Below are positions 1-13,541 of a DNA stretch of 64,000 nucleotides, in pieces; positions within the stretch are counted from its first letter, which is position 1; each line of letters opens with the position of its first letter. The position numbers and the translations under genes are program-made. The DNA lies in NCBI RefSeq assembly GCF_900105245.1, contig NZ_FNSZ01000001.1:3100001-3164000 (forward strand), in the 5' to 3' direction. The DNA comes from Streptomyces sp. 1222.5. Lineage in GTDB: Bacteria; Actinomycetota; Actinomycetes; Streptomycetales; Streptomycetaceae. The notes under the pieces are model-generated. The model was not told the DNA's origin. It worked only from the letters and a program-made list of their open reading frames with translations, and searched no databases.

Positions 1-965
1 CTGATCTTGGTGCGCCGGATGTAGAGGTGGCCGAGGTCCGCCTCGGGGTCGTAGTGGTCGCGGTCGACGATGGCGGCCGGGTCAAGCAGGGAGATCAGGT
101 CGGCGAAGGAGCGCTTGTCGCCGTTGTGCGGGGTCGCGCTGGCAAGCAGCAGGGCGTCGGTGCGTGGGGCGAGGGTCTCGGCGAGGGCGCGGCGCTGGCT
201 GCCCGGGTTGATCAGGTTGTGGGACTCGTCGATGACGACGGCGTCCCAGCGGATGCGCTCCAGATGGTGCCGGTACTGGCCGATGTTCTTGAGCGTGTCC
301 ACGGAGATGATCACGCGCTTGTAATGAGTGAACGGGTTCCGCCCCGCCGGGAGCTCGCGCTGGACACGCTGGATGCCGAGCGAGTCGAGCCGCACGAGCG
401 GGATCGAGAAACGGGTCCACAGCTCGTGCTGGAACTGTTCCAGGATGCTCTGCGGGGTCACGACCAGGATGCGCTCGCCCCGTCCCCGGCGGATGAGTTC
501 CGCGAGGGTCAGGCCGATCTCCAGCGTCTTGCCGAGGCCCACGACGTCGGCGATCAGGACCCTAGGGCGGAGGTTGCGCATGGACAGGGCAAGCTCGGCG
601 GGGCGCTGCTGGTAGACGAGCGGGTCCAGCAGGAAGCGGTCCGCAAGGGCGAGCCCCCGCTCCGACTGCGGCAGCGGCGTCTTGCGCAGAACGGCTTCGA
701 GGAAGAGGCGGCTGCGCCGGAAGTACGAGGAGGTGTCGGGGACCAGGCGGGTCTTCTCCGGGTCGAGTAGTTCGACCGTGTCGATGCCGCTGAAGAAGAC
801 GGCTTCCTCGTCCCGGACGAACTCGGATACGCCGACCGCTTCGATCCGCTCACCGTCATGCTCGGTCGTGATGGTGTTGCGGACCAGCCACTCCTCGTCC
901 CGTACAAGGATCTGCGCTCCCGGCGGGAACCGAGTCCCGTCCTGCGTCGCCCCCTGGTCGGTCAC
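1..965 (-). CDS. SNF2-family helicase, DISARM DrmD-like (5' part; runs off the left edge)
   Basis: About 321 N-terminal residues are visible and the rest lies beyond position 1. An N-terminal region of about 130 residues (GAQILVRDEEWLV, then a VSEFVRD stretch) precedes a SNF2 ATPase core. The core shows Walker A GLGKT near residue 142, motif II DESH near 247, motif III SATPHNG near 277 and the SNF2 phrase YIRRTK at the edge. I chose GTG at 965 because AAGGGG lies 6 nt upstream; TTG at 1037 and GTG at 1046 are also in frame. The upstream kinase gene ends at 1095 on the same strand, so the two may be co-transcribed. SNF2 helicases of this N-terminal type occur in DISARM phage-defence clusters as DrmD. 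The SNF2 call is firm; the DrmD assignment is from memory and would be supported by drmMI, drmA, drmB and drmC to the left. Confidence 0.8.
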   Translation of the reverse strand, partial: MTDQGATQDGTRFPPGAQILVRDEEWLVRNTITTEHDGERIEAVGVSEFVRDEEAVFFSGIDTVELLDPEKTRLVPDTSSYFRRSRLFLEAVLRKTPLPQSERGLALADRFLLDPLVYQQRPAELALSMRNLRPRVLIADVVGLGKTLEIGLTLAELIRRGRGERILVVTPQSILEQFQHELWTRFSIPLVRLDSLGIQRVQRELPAGRNPFTHYKRVIISVDTLKNIGQYRHHLERIRWDAVVIDESHNLINPGSQRRALAETLAPRTDALLLASATPHNGDKRSFADLISLLDPAAIVDRDHYDPEADLGHLYIRRTKI

Positions 966-1094
966 CCGCGGCCCCTTCGTCTTCCCGTTCCACCTGCAAT
1001 CACGTGGTCCTGCCGTCCAGCAGTCCTGCGACCGCAAGTCTGTCACGGGGGAGGAAGGGCTCGTACTGGCATCGGCGACGCGAACCGGCGCGGC

Positions 1095-2294
1095 TCAGAA
1101 GCGCGCCTCCCGCGCGTACCCTGCGCGGATCCGCTCAGCGACCTGGAGGGGGGTCGAGAGTCGGACGCCAGCGCTCCCACGGCTTCGGGACGAGCTCCCG
1201 TCCTGCCCGAGGACGGTCTCCCCCGGGATGGAGGGGCCAGCGCTCCCGGATTTCCCGCCGGGTTCGTCGTCGATGTCGGCGGGCTGCCCCGCGGCCGGTA
1301 CCGCCGTGACCGCTTGCTCGTCGTCCTCCACCGCCGCCGGGTCGACGGCGGTGGGCGTGTAGGCGGGGGCGTCGGCCCCCGGTGCGGGTCCGAGGGCCGG
1401 CGCGGGGAGCTGGGGCACGACGATCTCGGGCGTGAGGTCGGTGAGGCGGTACTTGGCCTGGAGAGCGGTCAAGCCCTGGTCGTGGATGGCCCGTACTAGG
1501 CGCTTGATGACCTCGGGCAGAGCGGGCCGGGCGCCGGGGTCCGGCGCGAGCATGTCTGTGACCAGGGGCCCGAGCTCCGGTGGCAAGTCCGTCAGGTCGG
1601 GAGGAGTCGCCGGGTCCTCGATCTTCAGAGCAACGGCCTGCCAGGTGGGTCCCTCGTACGGGTAGTGTCCGGTCGCGGCGAACAGCAGCACCGCGCCCAG
1701 CGCGTAGACGTCGGCGGACCGGTCCAGCTGGTGCTCGCCCCGGGCCTGCTCCGGCGGCATGCACAGCACGCTGCCGACGACGAAGCCGGTCGCCGTCAGG
1801 GTGGTGCGGCGCTCGGCGAGCACGGCGAGACCGAAGTCGATCACCTTGGGGCCGTACCGGGACAGCAGGATGTTCTGCGGCTTGAGGTCACGGTGGAGCA
1901 GCCCCGCGTCGTGCACGGTGCCGAGGCCCTCCGCCAGCAGCGCTCCGAGGCTGGCGGTCTCGGCTAGCGGGAGGGGGCCGTGCTCGGTGACGAAGGTGCG
2001 CAGATCCGGTCCGGGGACGTACTCCACGGCGAGCCAAGGCTGATCAGCGTCCGCATCGGCTCCCACGAAGGCCGCGACGAACGGCCCGTACACCGTGCGC
2101 AGGCTGTCCACTTCGGACAGGAAACGCGCGCGGGTGTCCTCGTCGAGGACGGAAGGCTTGATGACCTTCACGGCGGCCTGGTGGCCGGCTGCGGACTCAC
2201 CGAGGAAAACCTGCCCCATGCCGCCGGCCCCGATCCGGCAGACGAGGGCGAAGCCCCCGATCTCCTTCGGGTCCTCGTCCCTCAGTGGTTCCAC
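1095..2294 (-). CDS. Soluble Ser/Thr protein kinase of the defence cluster
   Basis: A 399-residue Hanks-type kinase. It has a glycine loop GAGGMG near residue 20, the ATP-binding lysine in AAVKVIK near 41, catalytic HRDLKPQN near 131, DFG near 150 and PPEQARGE in the activation segment, so it should be active. A Pro/Ala/acidic tail of about 130 residues follows. There is no transmembrane helix or PASTA repeat, so it is cytosolic. The start is GTG at 2294, preceded by GGGGGAGG 9 nt away; the reading frame is open much further upstream but without kinase homology there. It lies directly upstream of the SNF2 helicase on the same strand and diverges from the DUF262 gene. Kinases often accompany actinobacterial defence clusters (for example Pgl), and a role sensing infection or regulating the neighbours is inference. 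Confidence 0.85.
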   Translation of the reverse strand: MEPLRDEDPKEIGGFALVCRIGAGGMGQVFLGESAAGHQAAVKVIKPSVLDEDTRARFLSEVDSLRTVYGPFVAAFVGADADADQPWLAVEYVPGPDLRTFVTEHGPLPLAETASLGALLAEGLGTVHDAGLLHRDLKPQNILLSRYGPKVIDFGLAVLAERRTTLTATGFVVGSVLCMPPEQARGEHQLDRSADVYALGAVLLFAATGHYPYEGPTWQAVALKIEDPATPPDLTDLPPELGPLVTDMLAPDPGARPALPEVIKRLVRAIHDQGLTALQAKYRLTDLTPEIVVPQLPAPALGPAPGADAPAYTPTAVDPAAVEDDEQAVTAVPAAGQPADIDDEPGGKSGSAGPSIPGETVLGQDGSSSRSRGSAGVRLSTPLQVAERIRAGYAREARF

Positions 2295-2555
2295 AATGCT
2301 GTGCCTCCCCCTTGTGGCCTGTACGCGCCGCTGCGGACGAGAGCCGAGCTGGACCGGAATCAGTGTATGCAAGGCCTGGGGTTTCCCTGCGCTGCTTACG
2401 TGACCAAGCCCCCCCCCCGACAGGGGACTCGGCGGAACGCCGTTGTCCGCTTGTGCCCTCTGCTGTCTTGCCAACGAATTTCCTGGATCAGGCCAGCCGA
2501 CTGTGGTGGTGATCGCTACGGTGTTAACCGCAGAGCGAAGAGGGGATCTCGATCC

Positions 2556-4406
2556 ATGAGAGCAGACACAGTCGACCTGCGTCGGATCTTCGGCAGGGAC
2601 ATCCGTTACACGGTGCCGCTGTTCCAGAGGCCGTACGTGTGGAACCGGGACGACAACTGGTCGGCTCTGTGGGAGGACATTCGCCGCACCGTCGAGCGGG
2701 CAGAGCAGGCGGCCCTGACCGGCGATACGGTGGCTCCGCACTTTCTCGGCGCCGTTGTCTTCGACGAGACGCCGTACCTTTCGTCAAGTCTGGAGACACG
2801 GCAGGTCATTGACGGCCAGCAGCGTCTCACAACTCTGCAGTTGTTCCTGTTCGCGGCCCGCCTGTCCGCAGCGGCTCTCAACCATGAGCGGTCCGTGCGG
2901 CTGCTGAGCAAGTTCCTGGAGAACGACGAGGACCTGTTCGACCGCGTCCAGCACCCCGATCACCTCTACAAGGTGTGGCCGACCAACGCGGACCGGGACG
3001 AGTTCCGCAGCGTCATGCGCGGTCAGGGCGGGGCAGGACGGTTCGCCGAAGCCATCACCTACTTCAAGCAGGAGATCGACGCTTGGCTGGCAGAAGCCGC
3101 CGAACCGGAGGAGCGGCTAGGGACGCTGGTGCAGACCCTGCGGGAACAGTTGCGCCTGGTCATCATCGATCTGGAAAAGCACGACGACGCTCAGGTCGTC
3201 TTCGAGACGCTGAACAGCCGCGGTACACCGCTGGAGCACGCGGATCTGATCAAGAACCTACTGTTCCGTGACGCGGAACGCGCCGGCGCGGACATCGACC
3301 GGCTCTACAAAACGTACTGGGCTCCCTTCGACCAGGACGAATGGCGCACGGAACAGACGACTGGCCGCATCACGCGAAGCCGCCTCGACGTGTTCCTGAC
3401 GTACTGGCTCACGATGCGAACACAGCGGGAGTTCACCGCCTCCGCCCTGTTCAAGGAGTTCGAGCGCTGGCTGCTCTCGGCTGCCGTCCCTACGGAGGAG
3501 GTCTTCGCCGAACTGGCGCGATACGCCGAGATCTACGACCTGATCGACGATTACCCGCAGCACGGCGTCGAGGGCCGGTTCCTCTACCGGATGAAAGTCC
3601 TTCAGACCTCCACTCCGATGCCCCTGCTTCTTCTCCTGTACGGCCTGGACGAGTCCGTGCTGCCCCCGGAGCGCCGTCGACGGGCGATCCGCGCCATCGA
3701 CAGCTACCTCGTTCGCCGGGCGCTGCTCAATCTCAGCAACCGCGACCACAACAACGTCTTCCGTGACCTGGTCGCCGCTGCAGCCCGGCAGCCCGACCGC
3801 GCGGACGAGGCCGTCATCAAGGCCCTCTCGGCAATGCAGGGAGCCCACCGTCATTGGCCGAGCGACCATGAGTTCCGCGCTTCGTTGGAACAGGACCCCA
3901 TCTACACCCGCCTGTACCGCCGCGGCGTACGCATCCTCCTGGAAGCGCTGGAGGACGAACTCCGCACCGACCACACCGAACAGCTCGTCGTCCCCCTCGG
4001 CGAGCAGGCGGGCGCGAAGTTGACCATCGAACACGTCATGCCGCAGAGCTGGCGCGACAACTGGCCGCCCCTCGAAAACGATCCATCCGAAGGCTCCGAC
4101 CGCGACGAACTGGTCCACACCCTCGGCAACCTGACCCTGGTCACTGCCCGCCTGAACCCCACCTTGGGAAACATGGCCTGGGAAGACAAGCGGCAATGGC
4201 TCAGCAAGCACAGCCTGCTGCGTCTCACCCACGGCACCCTGCTCAGCGCACCACCGAACACCGACATCAGCGACTGGGCTGCCACCTGGGACGAGCACCG
4301 GATCCACGCACGTGGCTCCTACCTTGGCTCACTGTCTTTGAACATTTGGCCGCACGCCGATGGCCTACTCGCCGCTCCGGTTTCTGCCGACCGCGGCGAC
4401 AAGTGA
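2556..4406 (+). CDS. DUF262-DUF1524 protein (GmrSD-like type IV restriction family)
   Basis: A 616-residue protein. The N-terminal DUF262 (ParB/Srx-like) domain shows FQRPYVW at residues 23-29, DGQQRLTT near 86 and FETLNSRGTPL downstream. The C-terminal DUF1524 (HNH-like) domain has EHVMPQSW near residue 491 and LGNLTLV near 523. GmrS-GmrD fusions of this layout use the DUF262 half for NTP-dependent sensing and the DUF1524 half to cut modified phage DNA. The key motifs of both halves are present, so it looks functional. The ATG at 2556 follows a purine-rich AAGAGGGG. It is divergent from the kinase/helicase pair and shares a 261-bp control region with it. Modified-DNA restriction is inferred from the family. 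Confidence 0.88.
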   Translation: MRADTVDLRRIFGRDIRYTVPLFQRPYVWNRDDNWSALWEDIRRTVERAEQAALTGDTVAPHFLGAVVFDETPYLSSSLETRQVIDGQQRLTTLQLFLFAARLSAAALNHERSVRLLSKFLENDEDLFDRVQHPDHLYKVWPTNADRDEFRSVMRGQGGAGRFAEAITYFKQEIDAWLAEAAEPEERLGTLVQTLREQLRLVIIDLEKHDDAQVVFETLNSRGTPLEHADLIKNLLFRDAERAGADIDRLYKTYWAPFDQDEWRTEQTTGRITRSRLDVFLTYWLTMRTQREFTASALFKEFERWLLSAAVPTEEVFAELARYAEIYDLIDDYPQHGVEGRFLYRMKVLQTSTPMPLLLLLYGLDESVLPPERRRRAIRAIDSYLVRRALLNLSNRDHNNVFRDLVAAAARQPDRADEAVIKALSAMQGAHRHWPSDHEFRASLEQDPIYTRLYRRGVRILLEALEDELRTDHTEQLVVPLGEQAGAKLTIEHVMPQSWRDNWPPLENDPSEGSDRDELVHTLGNLTLVTARLNPTLGNMAWEDKRQWLSKHSLLRLTHGTLLSAPPNTDISDWAATWDEHRIHARGSYLGSLSLNIWPHADGLLAAPVSADRGDK

Positions 4407-4694
4407 AGGTGGCGATGAGCACGTGGCGGGTTGATCATCCTGCCACGCGCAATAGCCGCTACTAACCTCCGCTGTTCAGCGGAACGTGAGCTGACGCCCT
4501 GACCGGCGAAACGAAGAAGAAGCCCAACGTCACCACAGTCTCGACGGTCACCCAGACCGTAACCTCTGCGCCGCAGAAGGTACAGCAGCCTTCATACAAG
4601 ACGTCGACGGGCCGTGGACCATCTGTGGACCGGATAGGCATAATCGAGCCTCCGTGAGGCCATGAACAGCTGTTATTCATGGACCCGAAACGGC

Positions 4695-4736
4695 CTCCGG
4701 AGCCGTGTGCGCAGGTTCGAATCCTGCCGGGGGCAC
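4695..4736 (+). repeat. att site: 3' end of tRNA-Arg(CCG), copy 1
   Basis: These 42 bp are identical to 13483-13524. They carry the anticodon loop CTCCGGA (anticodon CCG), the 3' half of the anticodon stem, a T-arm GCAGG-TTCGAAT-CCTGC and acceptor strand CGGGGGC followed by A. Here the 5' half of the anticodon stem (ACGGC) still pairs, but no D-arm or 5' acceptor strand GCCCCCG lies upstream, so this is a fragment and not a tRNA gene. Tyrosine integrases of actinomycete integrative elements recombine at such tRNA 3' ends. Confidence 0.85.
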
Positions 4737-4787
4737 TCGCCTAGGAACAGCAAGAATCAAGCGCTGACCAGGGCGGATGCCGACAGA

Positions 4788-4824
4788 AGAGGGCGGGAGT
4801 CAGTCTCACTGACTCCCGCCCTCT
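4788..4824. terminator. Strong hairpin terminator
   Basis: A perfect 17-bp stem (AGAGGGCGGGAGTCAGT and its complement) with a 3-nt CTC loop, lying 51 bp after the tRNA-Arg fragment. It probably ends transcription at the junction between the two islands. Confidence 0.75.
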
Positions 4825-4939
4825 CTCGTTGTCTCTCACCGTTCTCGCACTATCTGCGATACACGCGGCACACCTCCGCCACACTCGTCAGCCGTACGAC
4901 ATGGCATAGGGCCTTGCCAACCGCGATGAGGACGATGCG

Positions 4940-5506
4940 ATGAACGAGGGGTGGGCGGCCCTAGCCGCCGGTGGCTTTGGATTGATCGGCGCTTTGGCTG
5001 CCGCCGGCGCTGCCATGTGGGGTGCTCGGACGGGGGCAACAAAGGCTCTCGAAGCCACCTACGCCCAGGTGACGGGCCAAGAACTTGCCGAGCATCGCCA
5101 TTGGGTCCGCGAGCAACGCATGCTGGCCTTGATGGAGACAGTTGATCTACTGACGGCTATAGATGCAGCCCTGAGCTTGGCTTGGGTGAAGCTCCTCATG
5201 GGGGAGACGCCTGCTGCTGAACGGCACGAGGAGTTCGACGTAGCTCATAGGGCCCTCATGCGTTGTGTTTTTCGCCTGGGGGTCTGGGGACCGACCGAAG
5301 GCCGGGTCGTAGCCCAGGAGGTCCATCGCTTGGGCAGTCGCATCGCTGAAGCATGGATCCTGTGGGAGGCCTCTCTGGACTCCGGACATCCAACGGACGC
5401 ACTTCAGGAAGACTTTCGGGTTCGCAGAGCAGCGCTCAACGCACCATGGGCCGAGTTCCTCAACTTGGCCGGACGGGCTCTCAGGGATCCTACGCAGGCC
5501 TCCTAA
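4940..5506 (+). CDS. Hypothetical membrane-anchored protein
   Basis: A 188-residue protein with one N-terminal hydrophobic, Ala/Gly-rich segment (residues 6-28, GGFGLIGALAAAGAAMWG) and an otherwise soluble, helix-rich body. The ATG at 4940 has GAGGA upstream. It is the first gene inside the left att site. The next gene (5646-6236) has the same plan: glycine-rich anchor, TGA/TAQG turn, then an all-helical domain beginning HRHW or QWRR. The two look like distant paralogues. I do not recognise a function; such proteins are common cargo on Streptomyces integrative elements. Confidence 0.65.
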   Translation: MNEGWAALAAGGFGLIGALAAAGAAMWGARTGATKALEATYAQVTGQELAEHRHWVREQRMLALMETVDLLTAIDAALSLAWVKLLMGETPAAERHEEFDVAHRALMRCVFRLGVWGPTEGRVVAQEVHRLGSRIAEAWILWEASLDSGHPTDALQEDFRVRRAALNAPWAEFLNLAGRALRDPTQAS

Positions 5507-5645
5507 AAGTAAGGGACGCTGCGTCACCTGCTCACACGCGACGGAAACCGGCTCCCGCAGGCGCCGTCCAAGGGGGAGCTCCGGGCTGCCGGGCGCCTTA
5601 AGTAATCACCAGGGTGGCTGACCTGGGTTGCTGAGCTAGGGCACA

Positions 5646-6236
5646 ATGCAGACCGTGAACGCAGGTGACGTGGCAATAGTGGGTGCGGCAGCAGCTGTAT
5701 TTGGCGCACTGCTAGGGGCTGGCGGGGCTGTGATGGCTGCGACAGTCACAGCTCAGGGGCAGAAAAACTCGCAACATGCCCAATGGAGACGTCAGATTAG
5801 GCGCGAAGCCTACGCAAATCTAATGACGCTCACCGTTGACTTTTCTGTAGCGCTCTGGGCGCTCGAAACCCAGGTTAAGGACTACCAAGCGCAGAGATCT
5901 AGCCTCAGCAGCAGGCGAAGGCGTCTCCGTGCTGCCCAAATCCAGGAGAAACTGGACGCCGCGACGGCGGCGTATCACCGAGTGAACAGCGCCCATTCAG
6001 TGGTAGACCTCGAAGGACCGAACGATGTGATTTACCCGGCTGGGGCCTTGATGCGCGCAGTTAGGGAGGGGATGGAGGCTGCACGTGCGCGGGCGACACG
6101 GGAAAACGAGAACGATTTCCGCTCCCGTCGTGGCATTCCTCCGTCGGAGGACATTAGCGCCCGACGGTACCTACAGCAAGCTGATGATGCGGCGGTTCTT
6201 TTTAAGGTTGCCGCCCGGGATGTTCTGGATTCGTGA
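5646..6236 (+). CDS. Hypothetical membrane-anchored helical protein
   Basis: A 196-residue protein with an N-terminal Gly/Ala membrane segment (residues 8-33) followed by a charged helical region rich in Arg, Gln and Ala (residues 40-120), probably coiled coil. Base composition is less GC-biased than the backbone, with AT-ending codons, consistent with transfer. Same orientation and architecture as the preceding gene; no catalytic motif is visible. Confidence 0.65.
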   Translation: MQTVNAGDVAIVGAAAAVFGALLGAGGAVMAATVTAQGQKNSQHAQWRRQIRREAYANLMTLTVDFSVALWALETQVKDYQAQRSSLSSRRRRLRAAQIQEKLDAATAAYHRVNSAHSVVDLEGPNDVIYPAGALMRAVREGMEAARARATRENENDFRSRRGIPPSEDISARRYLQQADDAAVLFKVAARDVLDS

Positions 6237-6354
6237 AAGGAACAACGCCTATGTCAAGGCAGGGTCCTGGCACGGAGCCATGTATTAGTGTCGCCCGCCC
6301 AAAGGGCGGTCCTTCCTGGAATCTCCCCCGGCCTCCTCCCTGCCTTTATACGAC

Positions 6355-7801
6355 CTACGCGATGTCGCCCTCTTCCTCCAGAGCCTTTGTGATCTTTGCG
6401 TTGGCGACTTCCTCGTGGCCATCAATGCAGCCGTGATTGCACAGGTGGATCACCTCGGGGGAATTGCCGACCCGCCGGGCAACCTCGGCAATCGGTACTC
6501 CCGCGTTCAGCCATCGCGTGATGCAGGCGTGCCGCAGGTCGTACGGGCGGCCGGCCAGCGGCGAGTCGACGCGCTCGGGTGGGAGCGCGTACTCCCGCGC
6601 TTCCTCCCACACGCGCCAGTAGGTGGATGAGCCGACCACTCCCCCGCGCTCGTTGCCGAAGACACGGCCTTCCTTGGCTGTGCCGAACGCGTCCAGGTGC
6701 GCACGCAGGATCGCCACCAGGATCGGCGGGATGGGGACCGGTCGGTCGCTCTTGGCCTCCCTCGCTTGCAGCCCGCGCCGGTCGTGGCGCTCTCCTGAAT
6801 CGGTCCACTGCTTCCCGGAGACGGGACGCGTCTCCCGGAGCGTCAGCGTGCCCCATCCTGCGTCCGGGAGGTGGCAGTCAGACCGCTTCAGCCGGACGCA
6901 GGCCCGCGTAGTACAGGACCGCGTAGAAGGCCACCAGGCGCCTACCGCGGCACCGGTCCCACGATCCGACGTAGGACACCGCCGCGAGCAACTGGCGGGC
7001 CTGTAGGGCGTTCACGAGGACTCGCCGGTCTACCACGTCATTGGAGCCGATGTGCTTCCGGCGGGAGCGCTGAAGCGGGTTCTCCGAGAGGTCTCCCGCG
7101 ACCACTGCGTGTTCTAGGGCGGTGTTGAGGGCTCGCTGGGCGGCGCCTGTACGTGTCGCCCGCTGCCGGGGTGCCGTCTAGCTTGTACCCGAGGCGATAG
7201 AGCACGTCTTGAACACCGCAGCGTCTGCCACATCGGCCACCGGACGGTCCGTCGTCGTGAGCCAGTCATACGCGGCTTTGAGGTCGGCCGGCGGATCCTC
7301 GCCAGCATTCGCGGGCACGATCCCCCACCGGAAGGCCAACCGCAGTTGCTCATCCGAGGGAGAGGCGTCCCCGCGCTTGACCATGGCGAGCGTCACGGCT
7401 GCAAGACCGTCCGCCATGCCCTCTCGGGTCTTGGCCGCGCTCATACGCCACCGCCCGGCGACGTATTTGCGGCAGAACTCGAACCACCGCAACGGCGGTT
7501 CTTCTTCTGGGGCTTTCGCCGCTTCCGCTGCCGCGCGGACTTCGGACTCAGGCTGTCCGCTTGCGATCTCGAAAGCCTCGCCCCGGCGCATTGCCTGCCG
7601 CAGTTCCGAGCTTCGTTTTTCGGCGAGTGCCGACGTGGCGAACGTCGCGCTGCTCACCTTCCCGCCTACGACCCATCGCAGTTGGTAGGGTCGCGCTTTC
7701 CGATTGACCTTCGTGACCTTCCACAGCCGGACATCGAGGGAATACCCCGGCCGTGCTTCTCCGTGCGGCCGGAGAACAGGATCTTTGTCATCCGTGCTCA
7801 C
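6355..7801 (-). pseudogene. int: Decayed tyrosine integrase (frameshifted, catalytic Tyr lost)
   Basis: Integrase homology runs through this interval but is split over frames. The N-terminal half starts at GTG 7801, overlapping the xis stop by GTGA, and reads well to AAVFKTC near 7208, where a base loss shifts the frame (VLYRLGYKLDG continues in another frame). A second shift lies near 7150, before QRALNTALEHAVVAGDL. A third lies near 6885, after YYAGLRPAEAV. The C-terminal part keeps RPYDLRHACITRWLN, the usual Arg/His box. The segment that should read YAHCIDG is NHGCIDG, so the nucleophilic Tyr is replaced by Asn. The enzyme must be inactive. The homologous relic at 16991-17632 retains its Tyr. 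Confidence 0.85.
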
Positions 7802-7992
7802 GCAGCGTCCTCCCGCTCCGCAAGCCAACGCTCATACTCCGACCGCCGGATCCGTACGTCACCGTTGGGAAGCTTGATCGCACGGGGGCCTATGTCGAGT
7901 TGGCGCCACCGGTAGAAGGTCGACGGGGCGACCTTCAGATCGGTGATGACCTCTTGGACGGTCATCTTTTCGTCCTGCGTACGGGCGCTCAT
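7798..7992 (-). CDS. xis: Excisionase (Xis), MerR/AlpA-type helix-turn-helix
   Basis: A 64-residue protein with the actinomycete excisionase pattern: MTVQEVITDLKV, PSTFYRWR (recognition helix) and LPNGDVRIRRSEYERWL (wing). It should bind the arms of the attachment site and direct the integrase towards excision. Its stop overlaps the int start (GTGA) and its start overlaps the end of the ATPase gene by 4 bp, giving the order repA-like, xis, int seen in pSAM2-type elements. The gene is intact although its partner integrase is not. Confidence 0.85.
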   Translation of the reverse strand: MSARTQDEKMTVQEVITDLKVAPSTFYRWRQLDIGPRAIKLPNGDVRIRRSEYERWLAEREDAA

Positions 7993-9146
7993 TCCTTCTC
8001 CCCCTCGGCTTCGTCCGCCCCGGACAGGCCGGACAGCTCCAATTCCGACTGTCCGGGGTGTTCGTGCAGGTCAGACGCCATACCCGGACAGCCGGACAGC
8101 GCGGACACCTCTTGCGCGCCCTCTGTCCGGGTGTCGGTGTCCGGGTAGTACCGGCCGCCGGGGTCCTTGGTGAGCTGTCCGGCGTCGGCCATGCGGTTGC
8201 AGGTGCGCCGGATCGTGTCCAGATCAACGTTCGGCAGCTCGCCCGCCATGTCCTTCGGCTTGGCACCGGGGTGAGCGCGGACGTAGCGCAAAATCGTGGC
8301 GCGGGTGTCGCCGACGGTGTGGTCGGACACCGGGCCGTCCAGCAAGTGCCAGGCCCCGGAGGCGGGTTGGAAGCTGAGGGCGTACTCGGCTTCGTCCACG
8401 TCGCGGCCGGTGACGTGCAAGATGCCGTCTGCCTGGCCGCGTGCCCGCTTCAGTACGAGGGTGGCGTCGGCGGCTCCGGCGATGCCGTTGGTGCCGGAGA
8501 CCTCGGTGAGGAAGTCCTCGGAGCCTGCCTTACGAACGTGGTGCACGAGGACGACAGCGACGCCGTAGTGGTCGGCGAGCCGCTTGGCGTAGCCAACGGC
8601 CACATAGTCCGCGTCGTAGGCCGAGACGCAGGCCGGAGACTGGCCGCGCATCTTGGCGAACACGTCGATGACGACCATGCGCGCGTCGGGGTTGCGCTCC
8701 AGCCACTGTGCGATGGCCTCGGTGCCGCCCTGGGGGAAGGGCGGGCATTCGGTGACCAGGGTCAGACCGGCGGGGGCGGGCTGGCCTCCGAGGAGCTTGC
8801 CCATGCGGGTCTTTAGACGGCGCGGGGTGTCTTCCAGGGCGAGGTAGAGCACCGGTCCGCCCTGCACGGGCACGGAGTCGAACGCCTTGCCTCCGGCCGC
8901 GACGGACAGGCCCAGTCCGAGGGAGAGCCAGGACTTGCCGACCTTCGGCGGTCCGGCGAGCAAGCTGACGCCCTCGGCGAGGATGCCGGGCACGGCCCAT
9001 TTCGGCTCGGGGAAGTGCGCGGCCATGAGCTGATCGGCCGTCCATGCGGTCCGCGGGCGCTCCCGCTTTGGCGGCGCAGTGGGTGCCAGTTCGGGGTCGC
9101 TGGGCACGGAGTACAGGTGCAGGGGCGGGATGGGGTTGGCGCTCAT
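7989..9146 (-). CDS. RepA-like AAA/RecA-fold ATPase of an integrative element
   Basis: A 385-residue ATPase. Walker A GPPKVGKS is at about residues 64-71 and Walker B MVVIDVF near 157; HHVRKAGSEDF and TNGIAGAADATLVL follow in the RecA/DnaB-like core. A winged-helix-like region lies at about 285-330 (ATILRYVRAHPGA). This family (RepA/RSF1010-like helicase loaders) pairs with a prim-pol primase in element replication, and the prim-pol gene overlaps it by 4 bp upstream. The last 50 residues are encoded by DNA rich in TGTCCGG motifs, possibly iterons. A related copy of this 3' end lies in opposite orientation at 12767-12873. Confidence 0.85.
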   Translation of the reverse strand: MSANPIPPLHLYSVPSDPELAPTAPPKRERPRTAWTADQLMAAHFPEPKWAVPGILAEGVSLLAGPPKVGKSWLSLGLGLSVAAGGKAFDSVPVQGGPVLYLALEDTPRRLKTRMGKLLGGQPAPAGLTLVTECPPFPQGGTEAIAQWLERNPDARMVVIDVFAKMRGQSPACVSAYDADYVAVGYAKRLADHYGVAVVLVHHVRKAGSEDFLTEVSGTNGIAGAADATLVLKRARGQADGILHVTGRDVDEAEYALSFQPASGAWHLLDGPVSDHTVGDTRATILRYVRAHPGAKPKDMAGELPNVDLDTIRRTCNRMADAGQLTKDPGGRYYPDTDTRTEGAQEVSALSGCPGMASDLHEHPGQSELELSGLSGADEAEGEKE

Positions 9147-9900
9147 GCGGCGACCGTCCTCGGGCGCCGTGCTCCGGCCCGCAAACCGGAAGCGATGGTG
9201 CGCCGTGCCTCACGCTCGCCCTGGCCGACTTGGAGCGCGGCCGTGAGGAGCCAGCCGGTGACGTCGGCTTCGCTCAGCTCGCCCCCGGAAACGAGCTGTC
9301 CCAAGGCGACCGCGGCGATGTAGAGCGCGTTGTTGTGCTCGTGCGGGCCGGAGCCGGTGACCCGCTCCACTTCCCCGTTGATCGCGGAGCGGAGGAAGGC
9401 GGTGCGCCGTCCGTGGCCGGTGAGGGCGACCGTGATGGGCGTCTGCGGGGGCAGTGGCGCCGAGCGCAGGAGGTCGGCGAGCCAGCCCGGCAGGGGTGCC
9501 ACCGGCCGGTGGTGGGTGACCTCGTACGGGTGTCCGGCGACGGTGCTGCCCGCCCCGACTACGAGTCCGCCCCACGCGCGGGTGTCGACCTTCCAGCCCA
9601 GCCCGCGGGAGCTATCTCCGGCGGTGTTGCGCAGGGGCTCGCCCTCGGGGGCGAGGAAGTAGAGGTGTGTGCCGCCGCTCCAGGTGCGGACGGTGTAGGT
9701 GTCGCCGGGGTAGGGCTGGCCGTGGCGCGTGCAGAGCACGGCGAGCACGTCGGCGCCGTCGGTGACGCCGTGATGGGCCCAGGCGTCCGGCGGGGTGTCG
9801 CCGGGGTGCTTGGGCTTGTCCCGGTCGATGACGATCAGGCCGGAAGGGCCGGTGGCGATGCCGACGTTGAAGGCGCCGACGGACCATGCGCGGGGCGCCG
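9143..9900 (-). pseudogene. 5'-truncated bifunctional primase/polymerase (prim-pol)
   Basis: The frame from about 9900 down to the stop at 9143 encodes most of a prim-pol protein: VGIATGPSGLIVIDRD (metal site), SGGTHLYFLAPEG, GWKVDTRAWGGLVVGAGS and a C-terminal helical region. The usual N-terminal 60 residues or so (a hydrophobic start, cysteine/arginine-rich linker and a WEQRAT-like segment) are absent. Upstream of about 9900 the sequence changes to a repeat also found at 13321-13381. No ATG or GTG precedes the core; the first in-frame start is GTG at 9748, inside the active-site region. In intact elements this protein primes replication with the downstream ATPase. It is probably non-functional. 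Confidence 0.7.
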
Positions 9901-9910
9901 AGGCGGCACG

Positions 9911-9969
9911 GGTGCTGCAGCCCGTCGGCGAAGCCGACCTTTCAATGGGCGCAGGAGCCGGAGGCGACT
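9911..9969 (+). repeat. Dispersed hairpin repeat, copy A
   Basis: About 60 bp closely matching 13321-13381. It contains GCAGCCCGTCGGCGAAGCC, with the small hairpin TCGGC-GAA-GCCGA, and ends in GCGCAGGAGCCGGAGGCG. It sits where prim-pol homology stops and brackets, with copy B, the OLD/HhH cargo. Confidence 0.6.
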
Positions 9970-10017
9970 CCTACCTTGCTCGGCTGCACAGGTGAGCGAC
10001 AGATCGACCTGGACGGA

Positions 10018-11679
10018 TTACCCGGTGCTCTTGCGTTCACTCGACTCATCGTCGCTCAGGAACGCATTGAAGACATTGCGAAGCGCCTCCGGAGGTGTTC
10101 TCATCAACTTCGCCAGTGCAGGACCGTCCTTGCTCTTGCTGTACCCGCTGCCAAGAAAATGTTGCCAAATCCCCTTCAGTACATCGGCCCCTGGAGCAAG
10201 GGACTCCCAGGCGTCATCCCAAGCAGCGTCAATCTCTGCAGTATGGGTGAACCACGCTTCGCTGATACGCGACTTCACATCCCCGGGCCGGGGAATACGA
10301 TCGACCACAGCTGAAATCAATATCTCCTCACTCGGCACTACTCGGCCGAGTTTTCTCCGCAAGGAGTTATCTACTAGTCGAACCGGATCGGAAAATTCGG
10401 TCATGACCCGCTTCATAACCACAGCATGCTTAAGCTCGTCTGCTGTTGACCGCGCAATGGCTGCAACTTCGGCGCTGCTCACGGGATCGCGCCCTTGCTT
10501 GGCGCGCTCAGTGCTCAGCAAGGTGGCGATGACCTCGTAGTCCAGCAGAAGGTTCTCAATCTCGCGGCCGGGAAGCAGGTAGGTGTTAGGTGACTTCTCC
10601 AGCTTTTCCAGGAAAGCTCCTGAGAGTTCATCACGATCACGCACGTAGAGGACCCGTCGCTGGCCGAGCTGGTCAGCAACCTCAAGCCACTTGGCAAGAA
10701 GTTCCGCGTGGCGAGCGTCGTACCCTCCCCCTCCCGGTAGAACTACAACCTTGGGACTACGCAGCACATCATGGAACCACGCCTCAAGAATTTCCCGGTC
10801 ACTCGGACCTTCAAGGATCAAGATCCGCTCCGCTGACAAGACATCACTCATGCGCATGCCCAGTTCGCGCAATAGGTGGGCCCGCTCAGTCGTGACAACG
10901 ACCGCCTCGGAAACGCCATGCTTCCGACTCACGGTCACAACTCTGGTTTCCGGAGAGGACCAGTCCAGCATGGCAGCGGAATGCGTGGCAGTGAGAATCA
11001 GACTGCGGTGGGACCAGTTCTGAAGTAGCCCAAGAAGGGCTCGCTGAGCGCTAGGGTGAAGGCCGATCTCTGGGTCTTCCAGCACGACCGTCGCGCGGGT
11101 CGAGGTGCGTGTAAGACCGACAACGAGCAGCATGAGCAACTGCTCCACCCCGGTACCGAGATCCTTGAGGTTGTGCTGAAACTCATTTTTCACAGCCGGA
11201 TCCCTGAACGCAATTTCACACGTTCCGCCGTTAACCGGTGTCATTAGTACTCCAACATCAGGAATGATATCGGCAATCAATCCTTGGAGAGTGGACCAGA
11301 GGCGAGGTTTATTGGTGTGAAGGTGAAGCAGGACGGTGGCTAGGTTAGAGCCGTCCGAGTTCAGCACCTCAGAGACGTTGGAAAGCTGAGCTGACCGGCC
11401 ACTGGCCTGCCGCAAGGGCTGGAAGTGAAAATAACCATTTCTCCAACGCCGTAGCACCCGCTGAGCAACGGAGACTCCGCCGAAATGAGACAGAGTGTCA
11501 ATAGAGTCGCCACTACCTCCACTGGTTCTACTGCCTGCCGCCTCGGGATCGTAATTTCCAGCGAGAGCTGCTTCCAAGGCCGGTGTGGTGATTCGCCATC
11601 CGTCGGAACCGGATACCTCAAGCCTAGCAAGATAGCGCCATGCGTCTCGATAGTTTACTCGTACGGCAACAGGTTGCAT
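10018..11679 (-). CDS. OLD-family ATPase/TOPRIM nuclease, apparently lacking its N-terminus
   Basis: A 553-residue protein. The SMC-like ATPase half keeps a Walker B/D-loop VVLEDPEIGLHP near residue 200 and the switch LILTATHSA near 225. The TOPRIM nuclease half has ILEGPSD near 285, YVRDRDE near 346 and GREIENLLLD. OLD proteins normally begin with a strand and a Walker A (GPNGAGKS type) within the first 60 residues; none is visible and an in-frame TGA lies 10 codons before the ATG at 11679. This may be an N-terminally truncated gene, or the lost part may once have been a separate frame. OLD nucleases act in phage defence, alone or with a helicase (Gabija). Base composition is lower in GC than the backbone, so recent transfer is likely. 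Confidence 0.75.
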   Translation of the reverse strand: MQPVAVRVNYRDAWRYLARLEVSGSDGWRITTPALEAALAGNYDPEAAGSRTSGGSGDSIDTLSHFGGVSVAQRVLRRWRNGYFHFQPLRQASGRSAQLSNVSEVLNSDGSNLATVLLHLHTNKPRLWSTLQGLIADIIPDVGVLMTPVNGGTCEIAFRDPAVKNEFQHNLKDLGTGVEQLLMLLVVGLTRTSTRATVVLEDPEIGLHPSAQRALLGLLQNWSHRSLILTATHSAAMLDWSSPETRVVTVSRKHGVSEAVVVTTERAHLLRELGMRMSDVLSAERILILEGPSDREILEAWFHDVLRSPKVVVLPGGGGYDARHAELLAKWLEVADQLGQRRVLYVRDRDELSGAFLEKLEKSPNTYLLPGREIENLLLDYEVIATLLSTERAKQGRDPVSSAEVAAIARSTADELKHAVVMKRVMTEFSDPVRLVDNSLRRKLGRVVPSEEILISAVVDRIPRPGDVKSRISEAWFTHTAEIDAAWDDAWESLAPGADVLKGIWQHFLGSGYSKSKDGPALAKLMRTPPEALRNVFNAFLSDDESSERKSTG

Positions 11680-11950
11680 TACATCAGGGTCAGGGATGCA
11701 AAAATCTCAATCACACCATGGCCGCTCCGCTACCCATCCCTCCGGCCTCCGGGCCACCCATGCCATGGAGACAGGCTGGCGCCGCCGAAGACTCCCGCCG
11801 GCTGCGACACACCTTCGACACAGCCAGTGCCCTCAGGCGCTGTGGATTAATTCCCCCGCAGGTCAGACGAGGTTGGGGGTTCGATCGGCGCAATCACTCC
11901 GGAGCCGGGTGCGACTGGGTCTCACAGAGGCGCGCACGTACCCACTTCGG
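11680..11950. other. Non-coding stretch between OLD and HhH-like genes
   Basis: No supported gene is seen. A search by eye for a missing Walker A segment of the OLD protein in all three minus-strand frames found none. The sequence is mixed in base composition, unlike the backbone. Confidence 0.4.
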
Positions 11951-12634
11951 TCAAACCTTCCGCTGGCTTTCCCAGATCGCGTGGTCTAGCTCCCACGGTG
12001 TGCACCTCAAGCGGGCCGCAGCCTCAGTGAGGATGCTGATCGCTTGGACCGTGGTCACCGTGCGCTGCAGCACTGTTTGCAACCATCGAAGAACCATGCG
12101 GTCCGGCTTGATGCGGCTGTCGTCTCCTAAGAGCATCCACAGGTAGGCGAGTCGCGCGCCGGAGCCGTGGCCGGCAACCCCGGCGAGATCACGCTCAATG
12201 GCGCTCAGCTTGTCCGGATCAGCGAGTAGCGCATTGGCATCGGCAAGGGTTGCGATGCCGTGAGATGCCAGGAGCTCGGCGTAGTGACGGGCAGCTTCCG
12301 CCTTCAGGGGGGCATCGCGGTTTGCCCGTGTGCGCTGCCTGTTCTGTATGACCTCGGAAGAGAAGGCCTCTTCACCGTAGGTCTGGATGTGCGTAACGAA
12401 GACCTGGAGCGGTTGCTCGTCGGGGACAGGGAGCTGCGCGCTACCTGACAGCGGAACTGAGATGCCGGCCCAGGCCGCGTACCGGTGACAGGTCGGGGCC
12501 GTGTGCCGCTCGTAGTGGGCATTGATGGAGAAGACGGCGTCTAGAACGCACAGGGAGGCATGGGCCCACCGAGGGCCCCGCGGTTTGAGTGCCAGATGCC
12601 CTGCGGCAACGACTACTTGTCCTATCTCGTCCAT
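11951..12634 (-). CDS. HhH-GPD/endonuclease III-like fold protein (putative)
   Basis: A 227-residue protein starting at ATG 12634 with GGGAG 4-5 nt upstream. The frame stays open upstream to 12889, but that extension carries no family features and overlaps a repA relic. Recognisable pieces are RGPRWAHASLCVLDAVFSIN, VFVTHIQTYGEEAF and VAGHGSGARLAYLWMLLGD followed by IKPDRMV. The last two resemble a helix-hairpin-helix plus GPD catalytic segment of DNA glycosylases, with Asp in KPDRMV as the candidate catalytic residue. I recall similar Streptomyces proteins annotated only as hypothetical. The fold assignment is inference. It is encoded in the same direction as the OLD-like gene, 271 bp upstream of it. 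Confidence 0.6.
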   Translation of the reverse strand: MDEIGQVVVAAGHLALKPRGPRWAHASLCVLDAVFSINAHYERHTAPTCHRYAAWAGISVPLSGSAQLPVPDEQPLQVFVTHIQTYGEEAFSSEVIQNRQRTRANRDAPLKAEAARHYAELLASHGIATLADANALLADPDKLSAIERDLAGVAGHGSGARLAYLWMLLGDDSRIKPDRMVLRWLQTVLQRTVTTVQAISILTEAAARLRCTPWELDHAIWESQRKV

Positions 12635-12766
12635 CGCTCTCCCAATTAATGAAACGGGGAGGCATTGTTGCATGCGGCGCTGGCAGGAGAGCCAGTTGAA
12701 GGTCGAACCACGAATGCATGCTGCGCACCTACCGCACGCAGTTTGTCCCTGAGTGTCCTCCGGAGC

Positions 12767-12873
12767 CGGGACCACGCAGGAGGTGTCCGGGCTGTCCGGC
12801 TGTCCGGTTAAACCCCTCACCTGCACAAACAGCCCGGACAACTTGGAGAACCGCTGTCCGGGCTGTCCGGTCA
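12767..12873 (+). repeat. Inverted relic of a repA-like 3' end with TGTCCGG iterons
   Basis: The plus strand here matches, with gaps and about three-quarters identity by eye, the minus-strand 3' end of the ATPase gene (about 7990-8110). Shared elements are GAGGTGTCCG, CTGTCCGGCTGTCCGG, ACCTGCAC, CCCGGACA and a final CTGTCCGG pair. The encoded peptide QEVSGLSGCP corresponds to QEVSALSGCP. So a fragment of a second repA-type gene lies here in the opposite orientation. The TGTCCGG repeats could also be replication iterons. Confidence 0.55.
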
Positions 12874-12931
12874 CAGAGGGCTGCAACACCCCGCGTGTTG
12901 CAGCCCGTCAGGAACGCTGCTGTATCGCGTG

Positions 12932-13093
12932 TTAGCGGCGAATGCGCGGCAGGCTTCCTCGCAGCAACTTGACGACCTCAATAGCCCGTCGGGCCTTGCT
13001 GTCGTCAGAGGTGAACGCTGCGAACAGAGCGCAGATCGCGACGACAATCGTGACCAGCAAGGGAGGAACGGCGAACAGCCACAGGAAGGGCAC
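12932..13093 (-). CDS. Small single-pass membrane protein
   Basis: A 53-residue frame from GTG 13093 to TAA 12932. The N-terminus is strongly hydrophobic (MPFLWLFAVPPLLVTIVVAI and on to residue 27), then comes a charged tail (SDDSKARRAIEVVKLLRGSL). GGAG lies about 10 nt before the start. Small proteins of this shape are frequent near transfer genes of Streptomyces integrative elements. The function is unknown. Confidence 0.45.
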   Translation of the reverse strand: MPFLWLFAVPPLLVTIVVAICALFAAFTSDDSKARRAIEVVKLLRGSLPRIRR

Positions 13094-13320
13094 AGGACGA
13101 CAACTCCATGGTGAATGGATTGTCCCGCCGCCTACGGCTCGCCGGTCCGATTCCGGCTTCGTAGTGCTGGGAATGAATGGCTTCAGCGTCCCTGGGCTGT
13201 GTGAGGTGCGCTTGAGGCTCGGACCCGACCTCGTACCACGCGCTTCGCGGTAAGCCTACGCGATCCGCGGCCGTAAGCCCTGATCGATCCCAGCGGGGCC
13301 ACATCCAGCCGAGCCCCCGG

Positions 13321-13381
13321 GGTGTCGCAGCCCATCGGCGAAGCCGACCGCGCTCAACGGGCGCAGGAGCCGGAGGCGACT
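13321..13381 (+). repeat. Dispersed hairpin repeat, copy B
   Basis: Nearly identical to 9911-9969, with a 2-bp insertion after GAAGCCGACC. It carries the same CGGCGAAGCCG hairpin and the same GCGCAGGAGCCGGAGGCG end. It lies 100 bp inside the right att site. Confidence 0.6.
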
Positions 13382-13482
13382 TCCGACTTCGCACTATCTG
13401 CGATACATGAGGGCACTGCAAACCTCCCGGGATCAAGGAACCTGCTGGTCAGAGCCCATTCGCAAGCCGAACTCTGAATGTG

Positions 13483-13524
13483 CTCCGGAGCCGTGTGCGC
13501 AGGTTCGAATCCTGCCGGGGGCAC
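13483..13524 (+). repeat. att site: 3' end of tRNA-Arg(CCG), copy 2
   Basis: Identical over 42 bp to 4695-4736. The 5' half of the anticodon stem is missing here (GAATGTG replaces ACGGC), so identity starts within the anticodon loop, as expected at the far end of an element inserted in a tRNA. The 8.8 kb between the two copies is the inserted element. The sequence just after it forms hairpins typical of a tRNA terminator. Confidence 0.85.
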
Positions 13525-13541
13525 CTCGAAGAAGGTGCCCA

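Follow-up and report, generated by a model that had tools for sequence, protein, structure and literature searches.

The operon that crosses the left edge of the analysed window (64,000 nucleotides of Streptomyces sp. 1222.5, NZ_FNSZ01000001.1, positions 3,100,001-3,164,000) is almost certainly a complete actinobacterial ARMADA Type II system, for which an anti-phage role is predicted from the sequence. A Ser/Thr kinase gene precedes armA, and the order on the minus strand is kinase, armA, armB, a slot with nsnABC, armC and armD. Taken as a whole, the locus is probably a five-gene, kinase-bearing ARMADA II that would be gated by phosphorylation, equipped with a cargo slot and carried on a pSAM2-like element. 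The genome comprises 8.85 Mb, and the sequence further left of the window was read to position 3060001; the coordinates of all features are compiled in Table 1.

Table 1. Features of the ARMADA locus and of the surrounding mobile elements (contig, NZ_FNSZ01000001.1; window, numbering of the analysed stretch).
Feature	Position	Strand	Remarks
Integrase	contig 3063283-3064683		
RepSA, pSAM2-type	contig 3064823-3066199		
FtsK-like transfer gene	contig 3067783-3069150		
armD, UvrD/GajB-like helicase	contig 3078584-3080851	minus	last in operon
armC, YprA-family helicase	contig 3080848-3087618	minus	2256 aa; MZB and weak Vsr-clan nuclease match
NsnC	contig 3087708-3088661	minus	PADLOC E 3e-96
NsnB, AAA-DUF3696	contig 3088710-3089897	minus	PADLOC E 5e-114
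NsnA, DUF262 without DUF1524	contig 3089894-3091189	minus	PADLOC E 3e-124
Slot start, degenerate XRE and HATPase genes	contig 3091189-3092476	minus	
armB, PglX-like methylase	contig 3092477-3097984	minus	1835 aa; NPPW
armA, SNF2 helicase, BrxHII/RapA-like	contig 3097981-3100965; window 965 to 1 and past the left edge	minus	994 aa; start at window 965 or 1046
Kinase, Ser/Thr	window 1095 to ~2324; contig 3101095 to ~3102324	minus	409 aa as read; start at ~2294-2372
GmrSD-type gene, DUF262-DUF1524/HNH	window 2556-4406	plus	616 aa; ORF opens at 1980, start placed at 2556
att site	window 4689-4736	plus	48-bp direct repeat of the tRNA-Arg(CCG) 3' end; right end of the element
Second, tandem integrated element	window 4737-13525		outside the operon; ends at the third att copy, 13483-13525

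ARMADA Type II was introduced in a preprint by Bell et al. (2025). According to its main text, ArmA is a BrxHII-like SNF2 helicase, ArmB a PglX-like methylase, ArmC a YprA helicase with a C-terminal Vsr nuclease and ArmD a RelE-GajB-like helicase, encoded in the strict order armA-armB-armC-armD; in E. coli all four proteins are required, and protection occurs without abortive infection (PMC12458937). The four Streptomyces proteins pair one-to-one with those of E. coli, and each alignment spans most of the protein (ArmA, 33.5% identity over 1002 columns; ArmB, 32% over 1051 columns and 27% over 648 columns; ArmC, 28% over 2376 columns; ArmD, 32% over 774 columns). The order of the genes is the same, apart from the insertion of the three Menshen genes after armB and before armC. 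The Arm proteins contain Walker, DExH and NPPW motifs.

The single genes also show the domain layout of the system. armA encodes a BrxHII/RapA-like SNF2 helicase (Pfam SNF2-rel_dom, E 4e-15) and is 98% identical to armA of S. phaeoluteigriseus DSM 41896; it is adjoined by the PglX-like methyltransferase gene armB with its NPPW motif. The large, Druantia-like YprA helicase ArmC, with its fused OB-CON-DUF1998 part and C-terminal Vsr-type nuclease, matched Pfam DEAD, MZB and MTES_1575 (the latter under the curated cut-off), and its best PADLOC models were those of DruE. ArmD, encoded by the last gene, was recognized by its UvrD and GajB matches; Pfam returned no RelE domain, and the alignment with E. 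coli ArmD starts at residue 1 and thus includes the N-terminus. The plasmid and chromosomal ARMADA II copies of E. coli that were found in this analysis possess the same four-gene set. The chromosomal copy adjoins Zorya II and a DruH/DruE-like pair, which matches the main text of the preprint (PMC12458937).

The initial annotation had described a SNF2 helicase with a DrmD-like N-terminus and had suspected a DISARM context. The match is present, since DrmD models rank first for ArmA in PADLOC as well as in NCBIfam, and ArmB has secondary matches to DrmMI. That the locus represents a class 1 DISARM system with DrmD next to unrelated neighbours is, however, extremely improbable. The NCBIfam DrmD equivalog score amounts to 282 bits at a cut-off of 610 bits, DrmA-type matches also lie far under their cut-off, and DISARM-like proteins are placed far outside in the ArmA tree. 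Furthermore, armC codes for one single 2256-aa YprA protein fused to OB-CON-DUF1998 (MZB) and closest to the DruE models, and armD is not a DISARM gene. Extension to the left revealed no canonical drmMI, and the gene calls for the 40 kb beyond the left edge include neither drmC nor a separate drmA/drmB pair. DISARM was thus ruled out by gene content and scores.

The claim that a soluble kinase on the strand of the helicase belongs together with the latter is strongly supported. After 296 Streptomyces genomes had been searched, 45 of which hold ArmA, 40 other loci were fetched for the kinase check, and every one of them has a kinase homologue immediately before armA in the same orientation (40/40). 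The same was observed for 14/14 loci from other actinomycete genera in a class-wide search and, in a separate scan, for 76/76 named loci whose upstream sequence was long enough, among them loci of Micromonospora, Actinomadura, Streptosporangium, Planomonospora and Frankia; these three sets of loci partly overlap and their counts are not additive. The spacing between both genes varies from about 30 to 600 bp, which does not establish co-transcription. No kinase was found at the 18 loci of a diverged sister ARMADA II clade (one of which, L189, begins at armA and thus offers no upstream sequence to judge), at eight DISARM-like loci or at E. coli ARMADA II.

All 18 loci without the kinase group together as a single clade of the ArmA tree (SH-aLRT 99). 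One host family (f18) contains kinase-bearing as well as kinase-less loci, and because host families overlap in this way, the kinase follows the lineage of the operon and not the host. The distances of kinase and ArmA are closely correlated (Mantel r=0.956, 0/2000 permutations). In the kinase tree, the two deepest branches are not firmly joined; two groups and four AfsK-like kinases meet at this fork. When 61 Streptomyces genomes were searched, the six best matches to the kinase were the six that adjoin armA, followed by generic kinases. Every other upstream gene family is limited to 11 of 70 loci (16%) at most, in a clustering that partly picks up antisense shadow ORFs, and the unit therefore ends sharply at the kinase. 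As this genome has 44 Pkinase matches above the Pfam cut-off, a chance adjacency of kinase and armA is well under 1%. A random neighbour was ruled out by this count together with the 76/76 linkage and the lack of another recurrent upstream gene.

Since the operon always has the kinase across many related actinobacteria, these data suggest a functional role of the kinase within the system. Judged by its linkage, it is very probably integral to actinobacterial ARMADA II, with a function deduced from sequence. It is not essential to the ARMADA mechanism in general, because the E. coli system, as described in the main text of the preprint, works without a kinase (PMC12458937).

Two further observations were made at the kinase-bearing loci. 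ARMADA II with the kinase occurs twice in each of two genomes (G446 with L158/L159, and G057 with L060/L075), the two loci belonging to different sub-clades. In addition, 11/70 loci (e.g. L223, 5918-8362) have a gene for an N6-methylase-like protein some 150 bp before the kinase gene and in the same orientation; this gene is perhaps part of a type I restriction locus.

An alternative explanation is that the kinase acts autonomously, as an abortive-infection gene similar to PD-T4-6 that travels with ARMADA by chance. Stand-alone defence kinases exist, and PD-T4-6 is the best kinase model in PADLOC; this model type, however, matches any Ser/Thr kinase domain. Considering the all-or-none linkage throughout the clade, the co-variation with ArmA and the absence from the sister clade, this explanation is unlikely; independent cargo such as GmrSD and Menshen is, by contrast, distributed in a patchy manner.

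The kinase domain comprises residues 12-282 (Pfam Pkinase, E 2e-37), and no transmembrane-like stretch was detected in the protein (maximum KD19 = 1.28). The catalytic residues K53, E71, H144-R145-D146, K148, N151 and D163 are invariant in an alignment of 24 members, and the dN/dS ratio is 0.21-0.26 against four relatives. A structure search with the AlphaFold model returned ordinary Ser/Thr kinases alone, e.g. PknA, PknB and Stk1. Beside the confident kinase domain, the model shows a disordered part (~300-388) and a C-terminal helix (391-404, pLDDT ~73). This helix bears a conserved LRxxYA-like motif, which was found by a loose pattern in 98/111 ARMADA kinases and in 0/23 other kinases of this genome; the tail differs in the clade L070-L074. 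Docking elements usually look like this, with a conserved helix terminating a disordered linker of divergent sequence, and the helix may dock on an Arm protein.

The gap between armB and armC was measured in 51 kinase-bearing loci. A slot is present in 23 of them (armB-armC distance 1.9-19.7 kb), and in the other 28 the gap is ≤169 bp. Slots are scattered over several separate branches of the ArmA tree. Genes for an XRE-DUF5753 regulator (22/23 slots) and a small HATPase_c_2 protein (20/23) occur regularly; the rest of the contents is variable and mostly defence-like, with HEC-01A/B-type AAA pairs, a fusion of caspase and SF1 helicase, a beta protein (PD-Lambda-2_C-like) and a Mokosh-like PLD helicase. 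Menshen is part of the slot in 12 of the 51 loci and fills it in this genome, where NsnA, NsnB and NsnC occur together. The XRE gene in the slot of strain 1222.5 is in pieces and degenerate, so that the locus may be outside its ancestral control.

Pairs of XRE-DUF5753 and HATPase proteins serve developmental control in actinobacteria, and their regular occurrence in the slots would fit a kinase that controls expression, for example via this WhiJ-like pair, and does not act on the Arm proteins. This role is nevertheless improbable, as 28/51 kinase-bearing loci lack a slot and still possess the kinase.

Some slots show additional features. NsnC is far more variable than NsnA and NsnB (L038-L050): the ArmA protein of L038 is 97% identical to that of this genome and its NsnC just 51%, and in L039 the C-terminal part of NsnC is much closer to the protein of this genome than the N-terminal part, a sequence pattern that suggests recombination. 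The fusion of caspase (Peptidase_C14) and SF1 helicase, with ~1300 aa, was detected in the slots of L055 (15960-19877), L056 and L065. The 19.7-kb slot of L054 contains an Hsp70-like, an SNF2-like and a GmrSD-type gene and is apparently another defence cluster.

On the opposite strand, the complete DUF262-DUF1524 nuclease reported earlier was recovered with both domains (GmrSD_N, E 2e-35; GmrSD_C, E 6e-23) and the motifs DGQQR and EHV. Close homologues adjoin the kinase in three loci (L039, L198 and L206), and distant ones lie at or near the kinase in L044, L213, L216, L232, L239, L240 and on a plasmid of S. cellulosae. The GmrSD-type gene is thus a recurrent but optional neighbour, found next to the kinase in about ten loci in both orientations. 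Of the trio of kinase, helicase and nuclease put forward in the initial annotation, the pair of kinase and helicase recurs, but the full trio is confined to these loci, and a conserved trio was ruled out. Similarly, a conserved divergent promoter shared with the nuclease gene is not supported, since the orientation of the latter is not conserved; no sigma-70-like site was found at window 900-2700, which is a weak test in Streptomyces. In summary, the DISARM core expected at this locus is lacking, whereas the co-occurrence of kinase and helicase is repeated.

The locus was correctly suspected to be an island at a tRNA site. The window itself lacks an intact tRNA gene; the att site perfectly repeats the 3' end of the tRNA-Arg(CCG) gene, which is intact 42 kb to the left (3062203-3062276). 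Perfect 32-bp copies of this 3' end are located at contig positions 3062244, 3104705 and 3113493, the first of which is part of the intact gene, and the repeat common to the first two copies measures 48 bp. Because genes for an integrase, RepSA and an FtsK-like protein lie between these copies, the carrier of ARMADA and the adjoining genes is a pSAM2-like AICE of about 42 kb. The tandem element to the right contains integrase-like ORF fragments (window 6355-7105) and a gene for an AAA_25 protein (window 7989-9146).

A possible course of events can be proposed from these data. The kinase would be held to an ARMADA protein, most likely ArmA, by its C-terminal helix on the flexible linker. Upon infection it would phosphorylate at least one Arm protein, probably ArmA, and the system would move between a resting and an active state. 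Unprotected phage DNA would then be degraded by ArmA, ArmC and ArmD as they translocate along it, and methylation by ArmB would mark self or gate recognition. The chances that such a phospho-switch acts directly on the Arm proteins are evenly balanced. Menshen in the slot would provide a second, independent layer of defence, and the GmrSD-type enzyme may cover modified phage DNA. A more far-reaching scheme, rather unlikely at present, regards the kinase as a dedicated phospho-switch that would license ARMADA along with a swappable slot module (Menshen, HEC-01, caspase-helicase or others), the locus then being a layered immune platform whose second-line effectors can be exchanged.

An integral kinase would make actinobacterial ARMADA a signalling-gated defence, and comparison with the kinase-free E. 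coli system would be a direct experiment on the contribution of phosphorylation. Beside Pgl/BREX type 2, Streptomyces would then have a second system in which a kinase and a PglX-like methylase are joined. In the cargo slot, nature provides a series of combinations of two defence layers within one operon.

Among the known systems, class 1 DISARM likewise combines an SNF2 helicase, a PglX-like methylase and a YprA-family helicase; the present operon differs by the lack of drmC and of the drmA/drmB split and by armC and armD of the ARMADA type. With Pgl/BREX type 2 of Streptomyces it shares a Ser/Thr kinase (PglW in that system) paired with a PglX-like methylase and helicases, and the ARMADA kinase scheme would parallel that of PglW and PglX. 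The role of PglW is still debated. In contrast to PglW, which carries NERD and a tandem kinase, the ARMADA kinase lacks the NERD nuclease, the pseudokinase and the iSTAND part, its NCBIfam PglW score is 46 bits at a cut-off of 990, and no PglZ, BrxC/PglY or BrxD was identified near it among the genes examined. MADS, with the kinase Mad6, also joins kinase and methylase in an operon, and the PADLOC Mad6 model gives 177 bits; the NCBIfam MAD6 score, however, is 106 at a cut-off of 460, and the other genes differ.

All three slot proteins match the PADLOC Nsn models of Menshen (E ~1e-96 or lower), but nsnABC is nested here in the armB-armC slot of an ARMADA operon. The GmrSD-type gene resembles GmrSD type IV restriction enzymes in combining DUF262 and DUF1524 in a single protein and, unlike the core operon genes, sits outside the conserved ARMADA unit. 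The main text of the ARMADA preprint (PMC12458937) nowhere uses the word kinase, and an earlier mention elsewhere, including its supplement, is possible. With ARMADA Type II, the locus shares the four core proteins, their order and domain layout, the long-range homology and the carriage on a mobile element at a tRNA gene; it differs from the system as published in that main text by the extra kinase directly upstream of armA and by the regulated slot for cargo that separates armB from armC and is filled here with Menshen.
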